Source: Lactobacillales bacterium (GTDB lineage: Bacteria; Bacillota; Bacilli; Lactobacillales; Streptococcaceae). Taken from it: a stretch of DNA of 42,893 nt. Positions within the stretch are counted from its first letter, which is position 1; the number at the start of each line of letters is the position of its first letter. The DNA lies in contig JAIRWP010000051.1 of NCBI GenBank assembly GCA_031268845.1, positions 1-42,893 of the forward strand, given 5' to 3'. The translations under genes and the position numbers were made by a program. A model generated the notes under the pieces. The model was not told the origin of the DNA. It did not search any database and was given only the letters and a program-made list of their open reading frames with translations. Positions 9,377-31,281 of this stretch are shown here, piece by piece.

Positions 9377-10387
9377 ATGATAGTAAAAGTAGGAATTAAT
9401 GGTTTTGGACGTATCGGACGCTTAGCATTTCGCCGGATTCAAAATGTTGAGGGCGTAGAAGTTGTTGCTATCAACGATTTAACAGACTCTCGTATGTTGG
9501 CTCATTTATTAAAATACGATACAACACAAGGACGTTTTGATGGAACAGTTGAAATTCAAGAAGATGCTTTTGTTGTAAATGGTAAAAAGGTTGCAATTTC
9601 TAAAAATTCTGATCCAGCAAAAATTGGATGGAATAAATGGGATGTGGACGTTGTTCTTGAAGCAACTGGTTTTTTTGCTTCAAAAGAAAAGGCTGAACTA
9701 CATATTAAAGGCGGAGCGAAAAAAGTGGTAATTACTGCTCCTGGTGGTGCTGATGTTAAAACAATTGTTTATAACACTAACCACAATACTTTAGACGGTT
9801 TAGAAACAGTAATTTCTGCTGGTTCATGTACGACTAACTGTTTAGCACCAATGGCAGATGCTTTGCATAGACACTTTGGCATTAAAGTAGGAACAATGAC
9901 TACTGTTCATGGTTATACGGGAGATCAAATGACACTTGACGGTCCTCACCGTGGTGGAGATTTACGTCGTGCGCGCGCAGCTGCAGAAAATATTGTTCCT
10001 AATTCAACAGGCGCAGCTAAAGCCATCGGTTTAGTTATTCCTGAGTTAAATGGTAAACTTTCTGGTCATGCTCAACGTGTTCCGATTCCAACTGGTTCAT
10101 TAACTGAGTTAGTAACTATTTTAGGTAAAAAAGTTAACGTTGATGAAGTAAATTCAGCTATGAAAGCTGAGGAAACTGAATCTTATGGTTATAATACCGA
10201 TGAAATTGTATCTTCTGACATTGTTGGTATGACTTTTGGTTCATTGTTTGATGCAACACAAACAGAAATTATGCATGGGGATGATGATACGCAATTAGTT
10301 AAAACAGTATCTTGGTACGACAATGAAATGTCTTATACAGCTCAGTTGGTACGTACGCTAGCTTACTTTGCAAGTTTAATAAAATAA
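9377..10387 (+). CDS. gapA: Glyceraldehyde-3-phosphate dehydrogenase, NAD type
   Basis: Glycolytic enzyme converting glyceraldehyde-3-phosphate to 1,3-bisphosphoglycerate. The N-terminus [15 protein letters not shown] is the Rossmann nucleotide loop, [12 protein letters not shown] contains the catalytic Cys at about residue 151, and [15 protein letters not shown] is the conserved C-terminal segment. Length (336 residues) is normal. A consensus AAGGAGG site precedes the ATG and the gap to cggR is 56 bp. Unlike many Firmicutes, no pgk, tpiA, pgm or eno follow; a terminator comes next, so the operon ends here. Confidence 0.96.
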
Positions 10388-10433
10388 AAGCAATACGTAA
10401 ACAGCAGATTCTTAAATAAGATTAAATAAACAT

Positions 10434-10469
10434 AAAAAAGTGGAGCAATATAATTTGCTTCGCTTTTTT
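10434..10469 (+). terminator. Terminator of cggR-gapA
   Basis: Stem AAGTGGAGCAA pairing (with one G-U and one mismatch-tolerant pair) with TTGCTTCGCTT around a six-base loop, preceded by A6 and followed by T6. It is placed 46 bp after the gapA stop and would end the cggR-gapA transcript. Confidence 0.75.
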
Positions 10470-10555
10470 GCTTTTTCAAATAAAATTTTTAATATTTTGC
10501 ACCTCATTTAAAAATGGTTTATTAGTATTAAAAACTTTTTGATTATTAATCTCAA

Positions 10556-10564
10556 TGATATAAT
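10556..10564 (+). promoter_or_regulatory. Candidate extended -10 promoter of the coiled-coil/membrane pair
   Basis: TGATATAAT is a perfect extended -10 element. A CTTTTTGATT block lies about 17 bases upstream. It is 72 bp before the ATG at 10636 and follows the gapA terminator, so the two downstream genes appear to have their own promoter. Confidence 0.55.
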
Positions 10565-10635
10565 GCAAATAACATAAGCTAATAATTATATAAAGCAGCA
10601 AATATGTTTCTACATTATACTGGAGGGGAACATCT

Positions 10636-11469
10636 ATGAGCGAAGCAGCTTCAAATTATGAATTAGAGTTAGAAGAGTTAGAAAAAGTTATGGGGAAATT
10701 GGAAAAATCACTGATTTCAACCAAACAGGAATTAAAAGAAGAAACTGAAAAAAATGTTACATTAACTGAGAATCTTAATAAATTGAAACAAACATTTAAA
10801 AATAATTTACCTGCAACAAAAAGTATGAAACAAATAGAAGATCAATTGAAATTTACTTTAAAAAAATTAGATTCTACGCAAGAGCAAGCTCTTTTGTTAA
10901 AGAAAAAATTAGCTAAAATGCAAGAAATATTAAATCAGAAAATAGCTGAAAATCAAAAACTAAGTATTGATAATGAGATTTTAAAGCAAGAAATGACCAA
11001 CTTAACAGCAAAATTCCAAGAAAATGTACACTCCTCCAAAGTCAAAACACCACAAACAGATATGACTCCTTCAATAAATAAGACTAATGATTATAAAGAT
11101 CAATTACAGAAATTACAGAGTGATTTAGCTACTAGCAAGCAAATTTTGCTTCAACAAAAAAAAGAAAATCAAAAATTAAAAGAGCAATTAATCTCTGTAA
11201 AGCAACAAATGTTTTCTAAAGAAGAAATGGCTGATATGTTTGTACAAGCCAAAAAATTAGCTAGAGAAAAAGTTTTAAAAGATCAAGCTCAAATCCAGGC
11301 ACACGAAGAAGAAAAATATTTAAATACTATAAGTGAAGAAAGAAATAAATTGTATGATGAGTTATTAAAAATGGCACAGATAAATCAAAAATTTATTACT
11401 CGCTTAGCTGATTTAAAAGATAAAGAACGTCATTTAACAGAAAGGAAAGGCATCGAGAAAAATGAATAA
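10636..11469 (+). CDS. Unrecognised cytoplasmic coiled-coil protein
   Basis: I do not recognise this family. The 277-residue product has no signal peptide or membrane segment and is nearly all predicted coiled coil: long runs rich in Lys, Glu, Gln and Leu with heptad-like spacing (for example LEELEKVMGKLEKSL and LLLKKKLAKMQEIL). A break around residues 135-155 is rich in Thr, Ser and Pro. The segment MFSKEEMADMFVQAKKLAREKV faintly recalls the tail of DivIVA/SepIVA-type proteins, but this is not enough for assignment. Start has AGGGGAAC upstream. The stop overlaps the ATG of the next gene by eight bases, so translation is coupled and the two products probably act together. A scaffold or cytoskeletal role is possible but only inferred. 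Confidence 0.8.
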   Translation: MSEAASNYELELEELEKVMGKLEKSLISTKQELKEETEKNVTLTENLNKLKQTFKNNLPATKSMKQIEDQLKFTLKKLDSTQEQALLLKKKLAKMQEILNQKIAENQKLSIDNEILKQEMTNLTAKFQENVHSSKVKTPQTDMTPSINKTNDYKDQLQKLQSDLATSKQILLQQKKENQKLKEQLISVKQQMFSKEEMADMFVQAKKLAREKVLKDQAQIQAHEEEKYLNTISEERNKLYDELLKMAQINQKFITRLADLKDKERHLTERKGIEKNE

Positions 11470-12451
11470 GCGGTTTCGTTCAACAATATTAATAAGCTTA
11501 TTATTTTTTTCTTTAATATTCATAAATGGAATGAAAGTTTTAGCTGATTTTTCTACTTCAACACAAGCTGAAAATACAAGTAGTTCTGCAAGTGTCTCAA
11601 AAGTACAACCGAATGATTTATTAGGCGTAAGGTTAGATTTTGTTTATGATACGCAAGATGATGTAAAAAATACTCTAAAGGTTGTTGTTTATCTTATTCA
11701 AGAAGAAAAAGAGGTTTTTACACCTCTTTATAAAGCAGATAATTCACAATATAAAGTTACTGTAAAAGTAAATTTTTATGTTGGAGATAAACTGGTCCAT
11801 ACTCAAAATTATTCAACAAATAAAACAGGAGAGTTAAGCGTTGATTTAGACGAAATTTCTGCACTATCCAGTTATAAAGAAGGACAAGTGCGAGTTGAGT
11901 TAGATCCATTAACGGTTGGTGGAGTTGATTTAGATCAAAAAAAATATCATGATAAAGCTTTTCGTGAATTTACTTTGCCTATTCCAAAACGTTCTGAAAA
12001 GAGTTCTGTTGATGATGAAAAGCAGGAAGATGATGAAGGAAGAACAATGATGAGTATTTTAATAGAAGCAATTGTGGTAGGAAGTGCTGCATTAATCTTG
12101 GGCTATCTAATTGGCAGACTTCACGCCAAACGCAGATTCAAGAAAAAAGCTTTGCAGCAAGAAAAAAATAAAAAATTTGAAACAGTTCCAACATTAGATT
12201 CAAACGCTGTATCTTCCACTCAAGTAACGGAACAAAATATAAGCACTTCTTATGTAAAAGATGAGCGCGAAATTGAACCTCTTATTACTTCTAAAAAAGA
12301 TCCTGAACAAATTTTGGTAAACGCTGAAGGAAATGTCAAAGAAGATGCGACAAATCATGAAAATTTATCAGCTTCAGATGATAATGCAGATCCTTTGGAT
12401 CAAATAAAAGCATTGCGAAAACATGCGCAACAGTTACTAAAAGAAGTATAA
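11462..12451 (+). CDS. Unrecognised single-pass membrane protein with extracellular domain
   Basis: I do not recognise this family. The 329-residue product starts with a signal-peptide-like segment (STILISLLFFSLIFINGMKVLA), followed by a Ser/Thr-rich stretch and a probably beta-rich extracellular domain (about residues 50-185, with KVTVKVNFYVGDKLVHTQNY and LDPLTVGG). A second hydrophobic span at about residues 197-220 (ILIEAIVVGSAALILGYLIG) is followed by basic residues (HAKRRFKKK), so the remaining 105-residue charged tail should be cytoplasmic. It overlaps the upstream coiled-coil gene by eight bases. The layout suggests an envelope receptor or anchor whose tail meets a coiled-coil partner; function is unknown. 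Confidence 0.8.
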   Translation: MNKRFRSTILISLLFFSLIFINGMKVLADFSTSTQAENTSSSASVSKVQPNDLLGVRLDFVYDTQDDVKNTLKVVVYLIQEEKEVFTPLYKADNSQYKVTVKVNFYVGDKLVHTQNYSTNKTGELSVDLDEISALSSYKEGQVRVELDPLTVGGVDLDQKKYHDKAFREFTLPIPKRSEKSSVDDEKQEDDEGRTMMSILIEAIVVGSAALILGYLIGRLHAKRRFKKKALQQEKNKKFETVPTLDSNAVSSTQVTEQNISTSYVKDEREIEPLITSKKDPEQILVNAEGNVKEDATNHENLSASDDNADPLDQIKALRKHAQQLLKEV

Positions 12452-12468
12452 AAAAGATTGTAAAGCAG

Positions 12469-12520
12469 ACTGTGTAGTTAGTCTTGCCTAAGTTGGGGCA
12501 TCTACACAGTTTGTTTTTTT
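12469..12520 (+). terminator. Terminator after the coiled-coil/membrane pair
   Basis: Perfect 9-bp stem ACTGTGTAG (12469-12477) and CTACACAGT (12502-12510), then TTTGTTTTTTT. An outer AGATTGTAAA/TTTACAATCT pair (12456-12526) extends the structure. It lies 17 bp after the stop of the membrane protein gene. Confidence 0.8.
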
Positions 12521-12549
12521 ACAATCTCTAAAATTAGAAAAACTATCAA

Positions 12550-18790: not shown

Positions 18791-21143
18791 ATGAAGATAA
18801 AAATTTTAGTTTCCACTTTTATTGTTTTTACCTGTTTTTGTTCAAAAGCGCATGCTGATGTAGAAGAAAAGTTTACAAATATTTCGCAAGAAGAATTATT
18901 AGAAAGAGATCAAAAATATTGCATTAAAGATTTTGATGTAAAGATTAATTCCGAAAACTTTTCTTTAAATTTTATTACTAAATCTACTGGTAGAATTGTT
19001 GCTGCTGGCAAGCAGAAAAGGCGTAGAGTAGAAAATTTTAAGCAAGATCACAAAAAGACAAGCTGGGATTATCCTGAAGAAAATGTTCATATTGATACTT
19101 TTAAAGACAATGATCACTATAATGTACAGCTTTCCAAACTTAAAAATGAAGCAAAAGATTCTTCTTTTTCATTTCCCAAACTTCAAGCAGCAGAGTATTT
19201 TTTCCCGATAGGTGAGGGAAAGAGAATTTTAAGTCAGGATAAAGACCAGCTAAATTACTTTAAAAATGAAAAGTTGTCTTTAAATGAAAGCTTTTCAATG
19301 TCATTTGCTGCGGTTAGTAATCAAAAATTGGCAGCGATTTTTATTAGTGATAATAATTATGATAGATATCTGCAAGGGAAGGATCAGCAAAAGAAGCTAA
19401 ACTTTGAGGTGATAAATCGTTTTATTGCTTTTAATCCAAAGCAAGCATTTAGTTATCGGATTTATCTTACGCAAAATAATCCTTTAGCAATTGCCAAGAT
19501 CTATCAGATGGATCGTATTAAACATGGTCAATTTACAACTTTACAAGAAAAGGCTGAAAAAAATCCTAATATTAATAAATTAATCGGAGCTTCACATTTT
19601 TATTTTTGGCAGCAAAATATTCTAGATAAAAAGGATCTTAATTGGGAGAAGCTCATTAATAAAAAGACTAAGCCATTACTTAAGCACATTGGACAACTTT
19701 TAAAAAAGCATAGCGAAGATGGACACAAAGAATATGATCATGCGCTTACATGTCTAGCTAGGGGTAAAGCTTATGACTATGAAAAAAGAGTCATCTTAAA
19801 AGCTATAACTAGCGTTTTGGCATTGACTGATTTTTACGATTCTAATTACTTTCCTAAACCAGATCAAAAAGCACAAGCGTTGTTGAATAAAGGAACTAAT
19901 CATTTAACAACAGCTGAAATATTTGCTTTAAATAAGCATTTACTGGCAAGTTTTTTACAAAAAGTAATGGCACCTTTAGATAAATTAGGGCAAAACTCTT
20001 CTACTAAGATTATCCAGGAAATGAATGATAATGGAATTAAACACGCTTGGCTTGGTTTGCCAAATTGGAATTATGGTTTAAGCAATCCTCAGTTTGTACA
20101 AGTTGCTACACAACAAAGCTATCTAGTGGGTTCATACGATAGTTATAACAGTATTCATGAAAAAGCTGATTCTGATTGGATTACAGGAAACTTTGCTCAT
20201 AATTCAAAGATTTATAAAAAGGATACAATTCAAAAAGAAAATGGGGAATTTCAAACAGGCTTTTTAGGTAGAGGACGCGCACCCAATCAAACGTTGATCA
20301 CAGAAGCTGTAACTTCAAGGATGCAAAAATTAATAGATCCTTGTGTGCCATTTAATTCTTGGTTTTTAGATTGCGATGCTGCCGGTCAGATCTATAATGA
20401 TTATCATCCATTGCATCAAACAACGATTGCAGAAGATATCTCTGCGCGTTTACAGCGAGCACATTTGTTTAATGAAAAGGCAATGGTGGTTGGCTCAGAG
20501 GGCGGCAATGATTATTTTAATCAGGAGATGGCTTTTGCGCACGGACTTGATACAAATGTTAGTGCATGGGGCGATAAAGAAATGTATAAAAATAAAAAAA
20601 GTACGTACTATATTAGAGCATACTATAGTATGGATGGCGAGATTCCTGGTCGCTATCATAAACCAGTTCCACTGAAAAAACGATATCAAAAACTCTTTAT
20701 TGATCCGAAGTACAGTGTGCCATTATATAAGTTGGTCTATAATGAATCGGTGATTACCACACATCACTGGGAATGGGACAGTTACAAGCTAAAAGATTTA
20801 GTTGGTTTACGTCGTTTAAAAGAATATTTATATAACACTCCTCCATTGGTGCACCTAGATGCGAAAGTTTGGCAAGAAAAAAAAACAAGATTTGATTGCA
20901 AATAGTAAGAAATGGCAAGATTTTCAAAAATATGCTTTGCAAGAAGAAATGACTGATTTTCGCTATTTAACAAAAGATAGATTGGTGCAAGAAACGCGCT
21001 TTGGAGATAAACTGTCAGTAATTGTCAATTTTGCTAACTCTACCAAAATGATCAAGCATCAAAAACTAGCTCCATTAACTGCAAAAATTAATAATAATGG
21101 CAAAAGCGTGGTGGTATCGGTAAGTCAAAAGATTGGTGATTAA
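18791..21143 (+). pseudogene. Secreted glycoside hydrolase (GH101/GH129-like), frameshifted at A9
   Basis: Starts with a signal peptide (KILVSTFIVFTCFCSKAHA, cleavage expected before DVEEK) behind AGGAGG. The first frame runs 704 codons to 20905. At the A9 run 20877-20885 a shift to the +1 frame restores a sensible C-terminus (DLIANSKKWQDFQKYALQEE... ending VSVSQKIGD at 21143), giving about 783 residues. Core motifs are WFLDCDAAGQ (Asp about 527), DYHPLH and VVGSEGGNDYF (Glu about 570), resembling the catalytic region of GH129 and GH101 alpha-N-acetylgalactosaminidases. The 43-residue Asp-Glu spacing agrees with GH129 as I remember it. Substrate is therefore likely a host or environmental glycan. 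The frameshift may inactivate it, since the first product lacks the last 80 or so residues, or be corrected by slippage on A9. Confidence 0.65.
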
Positions 21144-26399: not shown

Positions 26400-26437
26400 A
26401 GTCGATTAACTTCAAAAACTTATCAAATTAATCGACT
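26400..26437. terminator. Hairpin between convergent pbp2b and comGG
   Basis: Perfect 10-bp stem AGTCGATTAA (26400-26409) and TTAATCGACT (26428-26437) around an 18-base loop. It lies between the pbp2b stop and the comGG stop. No T tract follows on either strand, so termination is plausible but weakly supported. Confidence 0.4.
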
Positions 26438-26768
26438 ATGCTGATCCGCAGTTGAGTATTCCATTTTTGCCTGATGATATTTGGAAAACTTGTTTATTAT
26501 TTAAAATAATTTTATAAATTGTTGTGTTGCCTTGATGATCCGTCAAAACTTTCCCTGTATTAAAATAAAAAGTTTGATTTTTCGTTGTCTCCAACCCATT
26601 TTCACGAAGAATAAAAATCATCATGCGCGCCGTCAATTGTTGTTCATTATTTTTTCGAAAAGAATGATATTGCTTATAATCTGAATATATGTAATTCCAT
26701 AAACTAGTGATTAGAAGCAATAGAAAAAGTGTTCCAAGTAAAATGTGTCCTTTTAAATCTTCTTTCAT
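26436..26768 (-). CDS. comGG: Competence pseudopilus protein ComGG
   Basis: Last gene of the comG operon, recognised mainly by position and layout: a short basic N-terminus, one hydrophobic helix (GHILLGTLFLLLLITSLW) and a small extracellular domain, about 110 residues. ComGG proteins are poorly conserved and lack a normal prepilin site, as here. The start at 26768 (MKEDLKG) is preferred because it follows the comGF stop by 4 bp; an in-frame ATG at 26825 would overlap comGF by 53 bp. It would act as a minor subunit of the DNA-uptake pseudopilus. Confidence 0.75.
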   Translation of the reverse strand: MKEDLKGHILLGTLFLLLLITSLWNYIYSDYKQYHSFRKNNEQQLTARMMIFILRENGLETTKNQTFYFNTGKVLTDHQGNTTIYKIILNNKQVFQISSGKNGILNCGSA

Positions 26769-26772
26769 GCCT

Positions 26773-27210
26773 TCATTCCTTAGCTGGTAGTAATAAGAGA
26801 TCAGAATACCTTCTATTATCATCAATAAAGCAAATATATATTTTTAGCATATCTTTTTCTTTTTGAAATGAGCAATTTGTAACATCACGTAAAAGTGGCT
26901 GATATCCACGACCATTCTTTTTAATCCTGATTTCTTTTGTTTTTGGAAAAAATTCTATAACTTTGAATTCTAATTCTTTTAAAATTATAAAATGATGTTC
27001 ATTTTGCCATCTCACTTCATTAGCATCAGCAATTTCTTTTTCTAACAAAGAAAGAGTACTGTAATAATCTACGTCTCGCGCATATAAGTACTTTGTCCCC
27101 CAGAGATTGATATTTTTAAATATTAGGAAAAATAACAAAAGAAATTGAGATAAAACGAACAACGAAAGCAGTGATTCAAAAATAGCAAAACCTTTGATTT
27201 TTTTATTCAA
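26773..27210 (-). CDS. comGF: Competence pseudopilin ComGF
   Basis: Minor pseudopilin of the DNA-uptake machine. The N-terminus MNKKIKGFAIFESLLSLFVL has the prepilin pattern: a short basic leader, the G-F-x4-E peptidase site and a hydrophobic helix. The globular part has LEKEIADANEVRW and the C-terminal Cys-containing strand KIYICFIDDNRRYSD typical of ComGF. It overlaps comGE by eight bases, and length of 145 residues is normal. Confidence 0.85.
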   Translation of the reverse strand: MNKKIKGFAIFESLLSLFVLSQFLLLFFLIFKNINLWGTKYLYARDVDYYSTLSLLEKEIADANEVRWQNEHHFIILKELEFKVIEFFPKTKEIRIKKNGRGYQPLLRDVTNCSFQKEKDMLKIYICFIDDNRRYSDLLLLPAKE

Positions 27211-27526
27211 GTAATTTCACTTCTTTGTCTGTAAAACGTACTCCAATAATTTTATCTTGTACATTTTTTAAAAGTTTCGCTTTACCTATATCCGTTTTTA
27301 ACATTAAGCTTTGTTTAGCATTTTGTACTTCGACTAAATTTTGATGCTCTTTTTCCATTAATGTTTCAATATGAGAAATCCATGAAATAAACGGCGTTAC
27401 CAAAAGAGTGATGATCAATAATGATACAAGTGTTTCAAACAAAGCAAAGCCTTTGAAAAACTGTTTAGCCTTTTTTCTAGATATAAAGCCATTAAAAAAT
27501 TTTAGATAAATTTTAATATTTTTCAT
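27203..27526 (-). CDS. comGE: Competence pseudopilin ComGE
   Basis: Small pseudopilin: basic leader, prepilin site KGFALFETLVSLLIITLLV at about residues 26-44 of this reading, then a short globular domain, 107 residues in all. The start at 27526 (MKNIKIYLKF) is preferred since GGGAGG lies about 13 nt upstream; the frame is open eight codons further. It overlaps the 3' end of comGD by 14 bp and the start of comGF by eight. Confidence 0.8.
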   Translation of the reverse strand: MKNIKIYLKFFNGFISRKKAKQFFKGFALFETLVSLLIITLLVTPFISWISHIETLMEKEHQNLVEVQNAKQSLMLKTDIGKAKLLKNVQDKIIGVRFTDKEVKLLE

Positions 27527-27962
27527 GATTTTTCCATAACCTCCCACCAATTAACAGTGAGTAACTTTGATATTTATGAATGGCTGAATTGTGAAAATGA
27601 ATTTTAAAAAGATAAGAAAAATGACCTCGCTCATTAAATTGCAGCAATTGTTTTCCTTCAGCCGTATACTTTATTTCTTTGGGTAATTGACAATGGCCAA
27701 TTTCGACTTTTTTAGTTAGAAAAAACGCTTTAAAGCAATTTTCTGTGGAAATAAACTGAATTTTGATAGTTTGATTTGAACTAACAGCTTTTTCTTGCCA
27801 ACTAATCATGCTTTTTTCAAATGAATAAAGAGATCTTTGCCATTCTAAATATTGCCTATACTTTGTTAAGCCACTGATAGTGAAACAAATAATAGGTATG
27901 GTAATCGACAAAGCAATAAGCAACTCCAGTAAAGTAAATCCAGCTAATTCTTTTCTTCTCAT
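27513..27962 (-). CDS. comGD: Competence pseudopilin ComGD
   Basis: Pseudopilin with leader MRRKELAGFTLLELLIALSI, which matches the G-FTLLE prepilin peptidase site. The rest (149 residues) has ComGD-like features including KSMISWQEKAVSSNQTIKI. It begins two bases after the comGC stop, consistent with coupled translation. Confidence 0.88.
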   Translation of the reverse strand: MRRKELAGFTLLELLIALSITIPIICFTISGLTKYRQYLEWQRSLYSFEKSMISWQEKAVSSNQTIKIQFISTENCFKAFFLTKKVEIGHCQLPKEIKYTAEGKQLLQFNERGHFSYLFKIHFHNSAIHKYQSYSLLIGGRLWKNHEKY

Positions 27963-27964
27963 TT

Positions 27965-28258
27965 TTATTGCTCTTTTTTCATTATTCGTTTATATTTTTC
28001 TTTCTGATCTCTGGTGATAAAGCCATCATTTTCTAATTCTTCAAGAGACGGTTTTTCACTTTTAGCTTTTTCTAGTTCATACATCGTCATTTGTGACTCC
28101 ACTACATGGATAAGGGCCTCATCACTTTTTTTCTCAGCAAAATCCTTATGTTGCATTAAATTGGGAACCATAATAAGGATCAAAATAGATAGAATCAGCA
28201 AAACAATAAGTGTTTCCACCAAAGTAAAACCAGCCATTTCTTTTCGCCATTTTTTCAT
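27965..28258 (-). CDS. comGC: Major competence pseudopilin ComGC
   Basis: Main structural subunit of the DNA-uptake pilus. The mature N-terminus follows the prepilin site in KEMAGFTLVETLIVLLILSI, and the protein ends with a short, Lys/Glu-rich globular part, 97 residues in all. The start at 28258 is chosen because it gives a normal leader and overlaps the comGB stop by four bases (ATGA). The frame is open for 34 further codons, but that part would lie inside comGB and does not resemble a leader. Confidence 0.92.
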   Translation of the reverse strand: MKKWRKEMAGFTLVETLIVLLILSILILIMVPNLMQHKDFAEKKSDEALIHVVESQMTMYELEKAKSEKPSLEELENDGFITRDQKEKYKRIMKKEQ

Positions 28259-29271
28259 TTTGCAATTCCTCCTATATTCTGATACATCGGTAGTAACATC
28301 GATACGTAGACCAAAACGATCATCCCTCCTACAAATAAAAAGACGATTGGTTGTAGCCACTGCATTTTTTCTTCTATTTTTTTAAATAATCTTTCAGCGC
28401 AGTTATCCCCGTAGCGAATCAATTCTGTTCCTAAACTAAAATTTAACTCCGCTTGTCTGATCATCATGCTAAATTCTTCCATAACAAAATTGAATTGTTG
28501 AATTTGCAAAGCAAAACTTATTCCCTGCTGTAATCCGTTTTCTAACTTTTTTGCTAAATCTTTCATTAAGGAAGATTTTTCTAGTGACTGCATAACGGTT
28601 AAAATATTGTTTAACTCCATTCCTTGCTCAAAAAAACGTCCCCATTCACGACTTAGATAACTAGTTATTTGCAATATGTAAAATTCACCAATAAATGGAA
28701 GTTTGGCAAAAATCTCGGCCTTTTCTAGACTTGATTTTTTCAATAATTGTCGCTTGAAAAGCAAGCACCAACTAATACCGATTAACAAAACGAAAATAAC
28801 TACCAAAGGACCGTATTCCATTAAAAGTAAACCTGCATTTTTTTCGTAACCTAAACGTTTTTGCAATTCAGGCAATAAAAAACTTCGCATTGTAATCAAG
28901 ATTCCTACCAAAAAAAGTAGCAGCAAACATGGATAAGTTATGATTGAAATAAATTTTTCTTTCTCTTTTTCTAACTTCACTAAAGATTCATCAATTGACT
29001 TTAGAGTTGAAAGTAAATTGCCATGTGTTTGTGCAAATTTAACTTGTAAAATTATTTTTTGTGAATAGCCAAAATATTGCAAGACAGCTGCCAAGCCGTT
29101 CCCATTATTGATTTCTTTTTCCAAAACACCTCCAACTTTTCGCTCAAATTCATATGCTGAAGCTTTAAAGATTAACGTACAATCATATAGGCAAAAACCA
29201 TTTTTAAGCATGGTGATCAAAAGAGAGATCAACTTTCTTTGATCCGCCATATTGAGCTTATTAGTTTTCAT
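28255..29271 (-). CDS. comGB: Competence pilus membrane platform ComGB
   Basis: Polytopic inner platform protein of the GspF/PilC family that works with the ATPase ComGA to assemble the pseudopilus. Three hydrophobic segments are visible (about residues 115-140, 158-178 and 305-330). Family patterns include the N-terminal LLKNGFCLYDC region and FAQTHGNLLSTLKSIDESL. The start is uncertain: ATG at 29271 (MKTNKLNM) sits beside GGAAG and slightly overlaps comGA, while 29286 and 29250 are alternatives. Length is about 338 residues. Confidence 0.88.
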   Translation of the reverse strand: MKTNKLNMADQRKLISLLITMLKNGFCLYDCTLIFKASAYEFERKVGGVLEKEINNGNGLAAVLQYFGYSQKIILQVKFAQTHGNLLSTLKSIDESLVKLEKEKEKFISIITYPCLLLLFLVGILITMRSFLLPELQKRLGYEKNAGLLLMEYGPLVVIFVLLIGISWCLLFKRQLLKKSSLEKAEIFAKLPFIGEFYILQITSYLSREWGRFFEQGMELNNILTVMQSLEKSSLMKDLAKKLENGLQQGISFALQIQQFNFVMEEFSMMIRQAELNFSLGTELIRYGDNCAERLFKKIEEKMQWLQPIVFLFVGGMIVLVYVSMLLPMYQNIGGIAK

Positions 29272-30223
29272 CTTCCAATAATTCATCAAAAAGATCATTG
29301 TCGATTACTCCTTGTTCTAATATTCTTTGTAATTTTGCATTCCACTCACCTTTCCATTTATTTTGCTTAGTGACAACATCTAGCAAAACACAAGCCTCTT
29401 CATTGATATTTATAACTAATCGTTGAAAATAAATAGCGCTTAAACATTCAAGTAAATCGATCTTGCTTACCCCTAAATCAAATAAGCGCTTAAAAATCCC
29501 TTGAACACTGCCAGCGTGAATAGTAGAAAAAATTGTATGACCAGTTAAAGCAGCGCGAATTACAGCTTGGGCTGTTTTTTCATCACGAATTTCACCAACA
29601 ATCATGATATCTGGACGATGGCGTAAACAAAGTTTGATCAGCGCATCATAATCCATGTCGATCATTTCATTAATTTGAAACTGTAAGATATTTTCATCTA
29701 TCAATTCCACAGGATCCTCAATGGCAATGACTTGTTGTCTTTTTTTGCGAGCGTGACATAATTCGTACATTAAAGTCGTTTTGCCCGAACCAACCGGACC
29801 GCAAAATAAATGCAGTCCTCTTTTATGCGAAATAGCATGAGCTTTTTTAACTTCTTTTTGACTAAAAAAATTCAAACTATCCAAGCCACTTTTATGTAAG
29901 TAGCGAATTACTAAACTTTCCCGATGACAGTAATCTCCAGCTGTTGATAAGCGTAATCTGCGCTTTTCTGTAAGAATTTCAACGCTCATAGCTCCTAGTT
30001 GTGCTCGCCTTTTTTCGCTAACATTCATTCCACCATTGAACTTAAAATGAATAATTAAACGCTCGCCAATTTCTTTTGTTATTTTTTGTTTATGAAAAAA
30101 ACAGTTTCCTCGGCGAAAATCAATTTTATACCCATCAACATATGGCAAAATGTAAATATCATGAATTTTTTCATAAATACCTTTTTCTAAAATCTCTATC
30201 GCTAGCTCTTTAATATCAGTCAA
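29261..30223 (-). CDS. comGA: Competence traffic ATPase ComGA
   Basis: Cytoplasmic GspE/PilB-type ATPase that powers pseudopilus assembly. Walker A GPVGSGKTTLMYEL is at about residue 145 of this reading, the Asp box is AIEDPVE, Walker B is IMIVGEIRDEKTAQ and the His box TGHTIFSTIHAGS. The zinc-binding Cys cluster of Gram-negative homologues is absent, as usual for ComGA. Start is taken as TTG at 30223 (MTDIKELAIEIL), which aligns with Bacillus ComGA; the frame is open to 30280, but that extra 19-residue aromatic stretch looks like untranslated leader. It is the first gene of the operon. Confidence 0.9.
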   Translation of the reverse strand: MTDIKELAIEILEKGIYEKIHDIYILPYVDGYKIDFRRGNCFFHKQKITKEIGERLIIHFKFNGGMNVSEKRRAQLGAMSVEILTEKRRLRLSTAGDYCHRESLVIRYLHKSGLDSLNFFSQKEVKKAHAISHKRGLHLFCGPVGSGKTTLMYELCHARKKRQQVIAIEDPVELIDENILQFQINEMIDMDYDALIKLCLRHRPDIMIVGEIRDEKTAQAVIRAALTGHTIFSTIHAGSVQGIFKRLFDLGVSKIDLLECLSAIYFQRLVININEEACVLLDVVTKQNKWKGEWNAKLQRILEQGVIDNDLFDELLEDEN

Positions 30224-30286
30224 TTTTGCCCAACTACCTTTCTGTAAAATAAAGAACGTAAAAAAATAGAAAAAGTACAAAATTTT

Positions 30287-30362: not shown

Positions 30363-30401
30363 AAAGAAGAAATTTTAATGAATAATACGAGGTGCAAAGC
30401 G

Positions 30402-30821
30402 ATGGCTGAAGTTAATTACACAACTCAAGATATTTTAAACCAACAGTTTTCAATGAAAATGCGTGGATATGATCCAGAGCAAGTTGATGAATTTTTAGAT
30501 AGTGTTATTCGAGATTATGAAGCATATATGCATGAAAGCTTTGCTCTTCAAGAAGAAAATGCTCGTTTGCAGGCAAAGATTGCCAATATGGTAAAAGTGC
30601 AACAAGCTGTAGCTCCAGCTTCTAATAAACGAAGTACAAATCAAAGTTCTGCTGTAAGTAATTTTGATATTTTAAAACGTCTGTCCAATCTAGAGCGAGA
30701 AGTTTTTGGGAGCAAACTGGTACAAGAAGAACAATTAAAAGAAAATGCTGAAGCTCCAGATATTGAAGCTGAAATTTTTATAGAACCAGAGATTGATGAG
30801 CAAGCAACTCGCTTAGTTTGA
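30402..30821 (+). CDS. gpsB: Cell division and wall synthesis regulator GpsB
   Basis: Small DivIVA-related adaptor that docks penicillin-binding proteins and coordinates septal and peripheral wall growth. The N-terminal DivIVA domain (about residues 1-70) includes MKMRGYDPEQVDEFLDSVI and a coiled coil ending in LQEENARLQAKI. The C-terminal trimerisation helix is FDILKRLSNLEREVFG, followed by an acidic tail. The start at 30402 (MAEVNYTT) is set by GAGGTG nine bases upstream; an ATG eight codons earlier lacks a ribosome site. rnpB follows within about 15 bp. Confidence 0.93.
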   Translation: MAEVNYTTQDILNQQFSMKMRGYDPEQVDEFLDSVIRDYEAYMHESFALQEENARLQAKIANMVKVQQAVAPASNKRSTNQSSAVSNFDILKRLSNLEREVFGSKLVQEEQLKENAEAPDIEAEIFIEPEIDEQATRLV

Positions 30822-30833
30822 TTTCCAAATACT

Positions 30834-31281
30834 TTGCGTTATTCAGATAATCGCGGTTTACGAAAAAATGTAAGCTGAGGAAAGTCCATGCTCGCACAAG
30901 CTGCGATGCTTGTAGTGTTCGTGCTAGCTGAAAAAATAAGGCTAGGTATCTTTAAAGTCTAACTGTCAGGCTCTTAAGTGATTATAAAAAGATTTTTAGA
31001 TAACGGCAGGAAGACAATACTAAGGTTTTTAAACTATGTATCAGTATCCTTGAAAGTGCCACAGTGACGAAGCATTTAAAGAAATTTAAATGGTGGAACG
31101 CGGTAAACCCCTCGAGCGAGCAACCCAAACTTTATGGTGGGGGCATCTTTTAAAGCGGAAATGAACGCAAAAAAGAGTAGTTTTTGCGTTTAAAACAAAG
31201 AAACTACAGATAAATGATTATCGCTTATCTTTTGCTCTTGAAATTAGATAAGTACAGAACATGGCTTATAGAATAGCGCAT
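30834..31281 (+). ncRNA. rnpB: RNase P RNA, type B
   Basis: Catalytic RNA that removes 5' leaders from tRNA precursors. Conserved landmarks in order are GAGGAAAGTCCATGCTCGC (about 30877), GAAAGTGCCACAGTGACGAAG (shown here as GTGCCACAGTGACG), GGAACGCGGTAAACCCCTCG, GAGCAACCCAAA and the 3' ACATGGCTTATAGAA. P1 pairs TGCGTTATTC (30835-30844) with GAATAGCGCA (31271-31280), which sets the ends to within a few bases. At about 448 nt it is somewhat longer than the 401-nt Bacillus subtilis RNA. Position after gpsB is typical of Firmicutes. Confidence 0.95.

Follow-up and report, generated by a model that had tools for sequence, protein, structure and literature searches.

A genus-restricted pair of overlapping genes in Streptococcaceae lacking MapZ: a candidate trans-envelope scaffold

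What do two overlapping genes encode when neither product belongs to a recognised family, and do they form a unit? We addressed this question in a window of 42,893 nucleotides, the whole stretch of DNA analyzed here, which is a single contig of a 1.2-Mb Streptococcaceae assembly in 97 contigs (G000). The genus is represented by five genomes. Four of them (G000, G002, G003, and G004) carry a readable pair; the fifth (G001) ends mid-gene at a contig edge and retains only the C-terminal 62 residues of protein 2. An initial annotation had placed two genes with an eight-base overlap at this locus, and the reading frames fall exactly where it put them. The genes and their expression signals are as follows.

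10636 to 11469, + strand: gene 1, predicted to encode a soluble helical/coiled-coil protein of 277 amino acids without a transmembrane segment (protein 1; pI 8.9)
11462 to 12451, + strand: gene 2, predicted to encode a type I single-pass envelope protein of 329 amino acids (protein 2)
11462 to 11469, + strand: 8-bp overlap ATGAATAA (gene 2 start/gene 1 stop), of equal length in four genomes
10536 to 10564, + strand: promoter of the pair, TTTTTG, 17 nucleotides, TATAAT, with an extended -10 TG; called from conservation in four genomes
10622 to 10628, + strand: gene 1 ribosome-binding site GGAGGGG, called from the sequence
11441 to 11450, + strand: gene 2 ribosome-binding site AAAGGAAAGG, lying within gene 1; called from the sequence and near-identical in G002 and G003
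12455 to 12527, + strand: intrinsic terminator of the pair, a stem-loop followed by a T run (-32.8 kcal/mol, z -6.8)

Both open reading frames are real genes, and the observation of a gene pair is confirmed. Relatives in the three other species are 79, 63, and 39% identical to the window's protein 1 and 86, 68, and 42% identical to its protein 2, with the lowest values in the most distant species, G004. Both genes are under purifying selection, with dN/dS values of 0.18 to 0.39. The overlap measures 8 bp in all four genomes with a readable pair, reading ATGAATAA, but ATGATTAA in G004.

The promoter and terminator that the initial annotation had assigned to the pair also hold. The -10 element TATAAT lies at 10559 to 10564 with its TG at 10556 to 10557, and the extended -10, either TGNTATAAT or a sequence very like it, stands upstream of the pair in G000, G002, G003, and G004 (TGATATAAT twice, TGATATACT, and TGTTACAAT). 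A pattern scan for promoters performs at chance level (23 matches versus 23.4 in shuffled sequence), so the promoter call rests instead on this conservation. A G-rich GGAGG or GAGG is likewise found upstream of gene 1 in the other three genomes. In G004, repeated GC-richer units AGATTGCGGCGCTCAGTGCAGCAGAGCTTAGGCA... occur shortly upstream of the pair's promoter (L004:330-480).

Upstream, the pair is preceded by the terminator of gapA (10433 to 10470, z -5.4). The usual glycolytic operon runs cggR-gapA-pgk; here gapA (9377 to 10387) lies behind cggR with no pgk, tpi, or eno after it. Elsewhere the window encodes a secreted 704-residue GH129 (GH101-related) glycosidase that may target mucin-type glycans (18791 to 20905), in what is a very small genome, as well as a ComG-type competence pilus operon, recognised by inspection, that this 1.2-Mb genome has retained (26436 to 30280, - strand).

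To ask what surrounds the pair in its relatives, we compared its flanks across the genus. In the window these are gapA and an L,D-transpeptidase gene; elsewhere they are leuS and a gene for a DUF5648 protein (G003), a DUF5648 protein gene (G002), mscS (G004), and an M42 peptidase gene (G001). The flanks differ in every genome, indicating that the pair itself is the unit held together by selection. Indeed, the two genes occur together in all four readable genomes, always adjacent and with an equal overlap despite the scrambled flanks, as the coupling proposed in the initial annotation predicts. Its argument from envelope-gene context fares differently: none of these envelope genes, the L,D-transpeptidase gene and mprF included, adjoins the pair in other species, and since neighbours are not conserved, this context carries no weight. 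The DUF5648 proteins of G003 and G002 are secreted-type proteins with the domain at the C terminus, encoded downstream of the pair and convergent to it (L003:254-1453 and L002:2177-3538, the latter on the - strand). They otherwise look unlike each other, and none is encoded beside the pair in the window.

Sharing an operon does not require physical contact between the products, and the two proteins could act separately, as is common in bacteria. Set against this, the 8-bp overlap has been held down to 39% identity while every other neighbour changed, and we regard separate action as very improbable.

Protein 1 is highly helical. Its hydrophobic residues show a heptad periodicity over the whole chain that exceeds all 2,000 shuffles, with breaks near P59 and at residues 130 to 152. 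Over the last third the helix continues but the heptad pattern is no longer clear, so that the earlier description of 277 residues as nearly all coiled coil is slightly too strong. The highest hydropathy over 19 residues is 0.15, giving no sign of a transmembrane segment. Invariant residues concentrate at positions 1 to 52, 191 to 215, and 235 to 264, which are 42 to 47% identical in all four species versus 9 to 24% elsewhere in the chain. The second and third of these blocks map as follows.

11206 to 11280, + strand: protein 1 residues 191 to 215, conserved around FSKEEMADMFVQAKKLARE; 44% of positions invariant across the four species
11338 to 11427, + strand: protein 1 residues 235 to 264, a conserved helical block near the C terminus; 47% of positions invariant across the four species

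Protein 2 has hydrophobic segments at about residues 4 to 31 and 194 to 222. The following features can be assigned to it.

11462 to 11548, + strand: signal peptide, residues 1 to 29, with cleavage motif V-L-A↓D; from hydropathy and the conserved motif
11612 to 11989, + strand: predicted extracellular seven-strand beta-sandwich, residues 51 to 176; AlphaFold2 model, 44% identical in all four species
12044 to 12124, + strand: transmembrane helix, about residues 195 to 221, followed by KRRFKKK; from hydropathy and a helix in the model
12392 to 12445, + strand: C-terminal amphipathic tail helix, residues 311 to 328, DQ(I/L)KALRKHAQQLL, a putative docking motif; from conservation and the model

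A cleavage motif of the form V/I-x-A↓D lies at residues 26 to 29 and reads (V/I)(L/I)AD in all four genomes. Together with the single transmembrane segment and the basic residues on its inner side, the signal peptide places protein 2, as judged from its sequence, among the type I membrane proteins (N-out/C-in). Folded alone by AlphaFold2, the ectodomain gives a fairly confident model with seven strands (pLDDT 79, pTM 0.76). The tail of about 107 residues is modelled as disordered as far as the C-terminal helix. Its last 17 residues, the best conserved of all, are 59% identical in all four genomes versus 12% for the remainder, and the sequence of the helix is retained also in the G001 fragment, the fifth genome. 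Hydropathy, the conserved cleavage motif, and the modelled sandwich thus agree with the earlier description of a signal peptide, a beta-rich outer domain, one span, and a cytoplasmic tail. The nearest solved structures to the outer domain are unspecific C2, Ig, and FN3 sandwiches. Fold matches in the PDB to T-cell receptors, C2 and FN3 domains, and MtrC have E values above 0.001 and TM-scores below 0.5, and we set them aside as generic sandwiches. No wall-binding motif was recognised in the domain.

How might the two proteins work together? Our preferred reading, to which we assign a probability of roughly 40%, is that the pair encodes a genus-restricted, translationally coupled, two-protein scaffold across the envelope; we infer the complex, its docking site, its outer ligand, and its cellular role. 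After cleavage of the signal peptide, the small beta-sandwich of protein 2 would sit just outside the membrane in the zone of the wall, one helix would span the membrane, and the flexible tail would hang into the cytoplasm. Protein 1 would be a soluble helical rod. A conserved helix in an otherwise free tail, and three conserved blocks in the rod, are the pattern expected of docking sites with spacers. The amphipathic helix at the end of the tail is the likeliest dock for one conserved end of the rod, and the outer-domain anchor would thereby be tied to a cytoplasmic coiled-coil body. The sandwich may hold something near the membrane, with the wall, a surface polysaccharide, or another envelope protein as candidate ligands. 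Protein 1 may, as the initial annotation suggested, assemble into a filament, and within our proposal it would bind protein 2; attachment of the outer domain to the wall is a further conjecture. Adjacency with the 8-bp overlap in four species, the shared promoter and terminator, and purifying selection speak for a scaffold, as do the membrane-topology signals of protein 2 and its confidently modelled sandwich. The generic fold matches of the outer domain and its lack of a recognised wall-binding motif speak against it.

The same architecture could instead be that of an adhesin or receptor at the cell surface, served by an adaptor in the cytoplasm. Here the outer domain would contact the host gut surface, food particles, or neighbouring cells, and the coiled coil would gather or relay, with no role in division or wall shape. 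A small Ig/C2-like sandwich is a common ligand-binding fold, the lineage consists of small-genome metagenome-assembled genomes (MAGs) whose source we infer to be probably the gut, and lineage-specific genes are frequent among adhesins. Against this stands the position of the outer domain at the membrane: the linkers on either side are only about 20 residues long, and with these it would hardly cross a Gram-positive wall. Further, adhesins tend to diversify on the outside, and the outer domain is the slowest-evolving soluble part of protein 2 in the comparison with G003 (dN/dS 0.15). Protein 2 also has no sortase motif or repeat. We find an adhesin doubtful, though it deserves consideration.

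Is the pair peculiar to this genus? With a four-sequence profile of protein 2, no match at an E value of 0.001 or below turned up beyond the genus among the 297 genomes searched in the family and the 346 in the order, and nothing acceptable among 399 genomes of the class. Searches of genome, viral, and plasmid collections returned no relatives beyond three members of the genus, the MAGs Streptococcaceae bacterium Nc350_bin42, Lactobacillales bacterium Cd354_bin51, and Lactobacillales bacterium Roe453_bin115, all of which probably come from termite guts. Origin from a prophage or plasmid was dismissed, as no relative lies in viral contigs or plasmids. Neighbouring genera of the family include Streptococcus- and Lactococcus-type genomes, as judged by gene order and content. 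For both proteins, Pfam, NCBIfam, PHROGs, and PADLOC gave sub-threshold matches alone, of which those to YabA, SMC, dystroglycan, and spanin are noise from coiled-coil or transmembrane composition. A sequence search of the PDB yielded nothing for protein 2 and coiled-coil noise for protein 1. A class-level match in G767 (E 3e-4) has an internal stop and covers the transmembrane segment and tail only, and it was rejected. The initial annotation had recognised neither family, and profile searches likewise gave no characterised system; the spread across Lactobacillales that it had raised gives way to one genus of Streptococcaceae. We regard the two genes as a new and unannotated pair of gene families, well supported, under purifying selection, clear in architecture though of a familiar kind, and seen in this one genus.

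Could this restriction be a failure of detection, with a diverged form of the pair present in other Streptococcaceae beyond sequence recognition? Proteins 1 and 2 change faster than the products of neighbouring genes: between G000 and G003 they are 63 and 68% identical, versus 81% for GpsB, 84% for RNase HI, and 89% for the M42 peptidase. GpsB, at 72% between G000 and G004, itself falls to 41 to 50% in comparisons with other genera, so proteins 1 and 2 could drop below detection there, and their absence elsewhere may partly reflect this limit. Nevertheless, the profile found no match across the family and order genomes even for the outer domain, 44% of which is invariant. Marginal matches in Streptococcus (E 0.002 to 0.5) align over about 50 to 130 residues, mostly contain internal stops, and were rejected. 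We consider a diverged form that escapes recognition unlikely.

The gene content of the genus raises a further question, that of division. For ovoid cocci without Min or Noc, placement of the division ring is understood for essentially one system, MapZ. A search for the MapZ_EC1 domain detects MapZ in 142 of the 149 genomes of Streptococcaceae. Seven lack it: all five from the pair-bearing genus, and two that are fragmentary (82% and 59% complete). With the count restricted to genomes of at least 90% completeness, 133 of 135 have MapZ, and G000 and G003 are the two exceptions. Within the genus, MapZ_EC1 (PF18041) matches none of the five genomes, and neither MapZ_C2 (PF18708) nor a full-length MapZ profile finds anything there. 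The pair-bearing genus is thus the only well-sampled genus of the family without MapZ. In four other genera the usual order is gpsB, rlmL, mapZ, and the corresponding locus of the window is as follows.

30378 to 30821, + strand: gpsB (NCBIfam NF010725), which opens the locus where other genera of Streptococcaceae have rlmL-mapZ
30839 to 31273, + strand: rnpB, the RNase P RNA (Rfam RF00011), after which the expected rlmL-mapZ is missing and rnhA and recR follow instead

Along with mapZ, rlmL too is absent from its customary place in the gpsB-rnpB-rlmL-mapZ locus (30378 to 31273; L048, L049, L053, and L054). The division ring is otherwise retained. FtsZ, FtsA, SepF, a PBP2b-like transpeptidase, and GpsB are encoded in the window, and EzrA (G000:C8), DivIVA, and a PASTA kinase elsewhere in the genome. 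The absence of MapZ from the pair-bearing genus, with these components kept, is new here. MapZ is retained in G102, an equally small Streptococcaceae genome (1.2 Mb, 99% complete); its loss is thus not dictated by a small genome alone.

In ovococci, MapZ is a single-pass link between the equatorial wall and FtsZ (PMC4931243, PMC7055233, PMC12203958). The pair could be a functional stand-in for it, placing or anchoring the division ring through two proteins, with opposite topology, where MapZ acts as one. The equatorial wall would be sensed by protein 2, and its disordered tail, the coiled coil, or both would recruit FtsZ or another ring component. The absence of MapZ throughout the genus and its presence in nearly all of the family fit such a role, as do the kept gpsB-rnpB locus without rlmL-mapZ, the retention of the rest of the ring, and MapZ in the equally small G102; moreover, MapZ too crosses the membrane once, binds the wall with its outer domain, and is disordered on the inside, where short segments are conserved (PMC7055233). 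Weighing against it, a loss and a gain that share one branch count as a single event, and genome reduction has removed many genes, seemingly including rlmL from the same locus. Further, pneumococcus can do without mapZ and shows only minor defects, since new sites are still reached by EzrA and FtsZ (PMC8687745), and Aerococcus, another member of the Lactobacillales, is without MapZ (PMC12203958), so no substitute is required. Protein 2 has no similarity to MapZ (hhalign probability 0.1%), and its topology is reversed. We judge a stand-in distinctly unlikely. Slightly less probable still is the stronger version, in which the pair would be a two-component division-site marker replacing MapZ, an independently evolved positive system of Z-ring positioning. 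In either case, a genus that lacks MapZ, otherwise keeps its ring, and is the sole carrier of the pair offers a candidate for a replacement system or for division free of MapZ.

The scaffold proposal can finally be set beside known systems. Among surface proteins and phage lysis proteins there is little likeness: Pfam and NCBIfam find no LPXTG-type signal or adhesin domain in protein 2, whose chain ends in a cytoplasmic-type tail, and a match to an Rz-like spanin (PHROG 1026, E 0.053) was discarded because it covers the transmembrane region only and has no relative on a viral contig. YabA (PF06156) shows a weak coiled-coil similarity to the middle of protein 1 (E 0.0035 to 0.081 over three members), of the sort any coiled coil would give; the window protein scores 14 bits where the curated cut-off is 30, and this assignment was rejected. 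YabA has a C-terminal zinc-binding domain, which is unmatched in protein 1. DivIVA and GpsB (PF05103) resemble protein 1 as soluble coiled-coil scaffolds at the membrane. The block around FSKEEMADMFVQAKKLARE prompted us to consider protein 1 as a degenerate DivIVA; this lacks profile support, true DivIVA and GpsB are present, and protein 1 has no match to the N-terminal DivIVA domain, the sole match on the contig being gpsB (30417 to 30608). EzrA (PF06160) is similarly a membrane-linked helical/coiled-coil part of ovococcal division, but it is one protein with its own N-terminal transmembrane segment and spectrin-like repeats. Protein 1 has no PF06160 match and no such segment, and a true EzrA lies at G000:C8.

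MapZ/LocZ is the remaining comparison. It is N-in/C-out and carries a four-helix bundle and a C-terminal wall-binding domain (PMC4931243), whereas protein 2 has a signal peptide, an N-out/C-in topology, a single beta-sandwich, and a separate coiled-coil partner. The MapZ gene follows gpsB-rnpB-rlmL, whereas the pair sits elsewhere. Protein 2 is thus not MapZ itself, failing on both domains, topology, gene order, and sequence. What the two share is a general plan, a single transmembrane segment between an outer domain and a disordered cytoplasmic part in which short segments are conserved (PMC7055233), and within Streptococcaceae their distributions are complementary.
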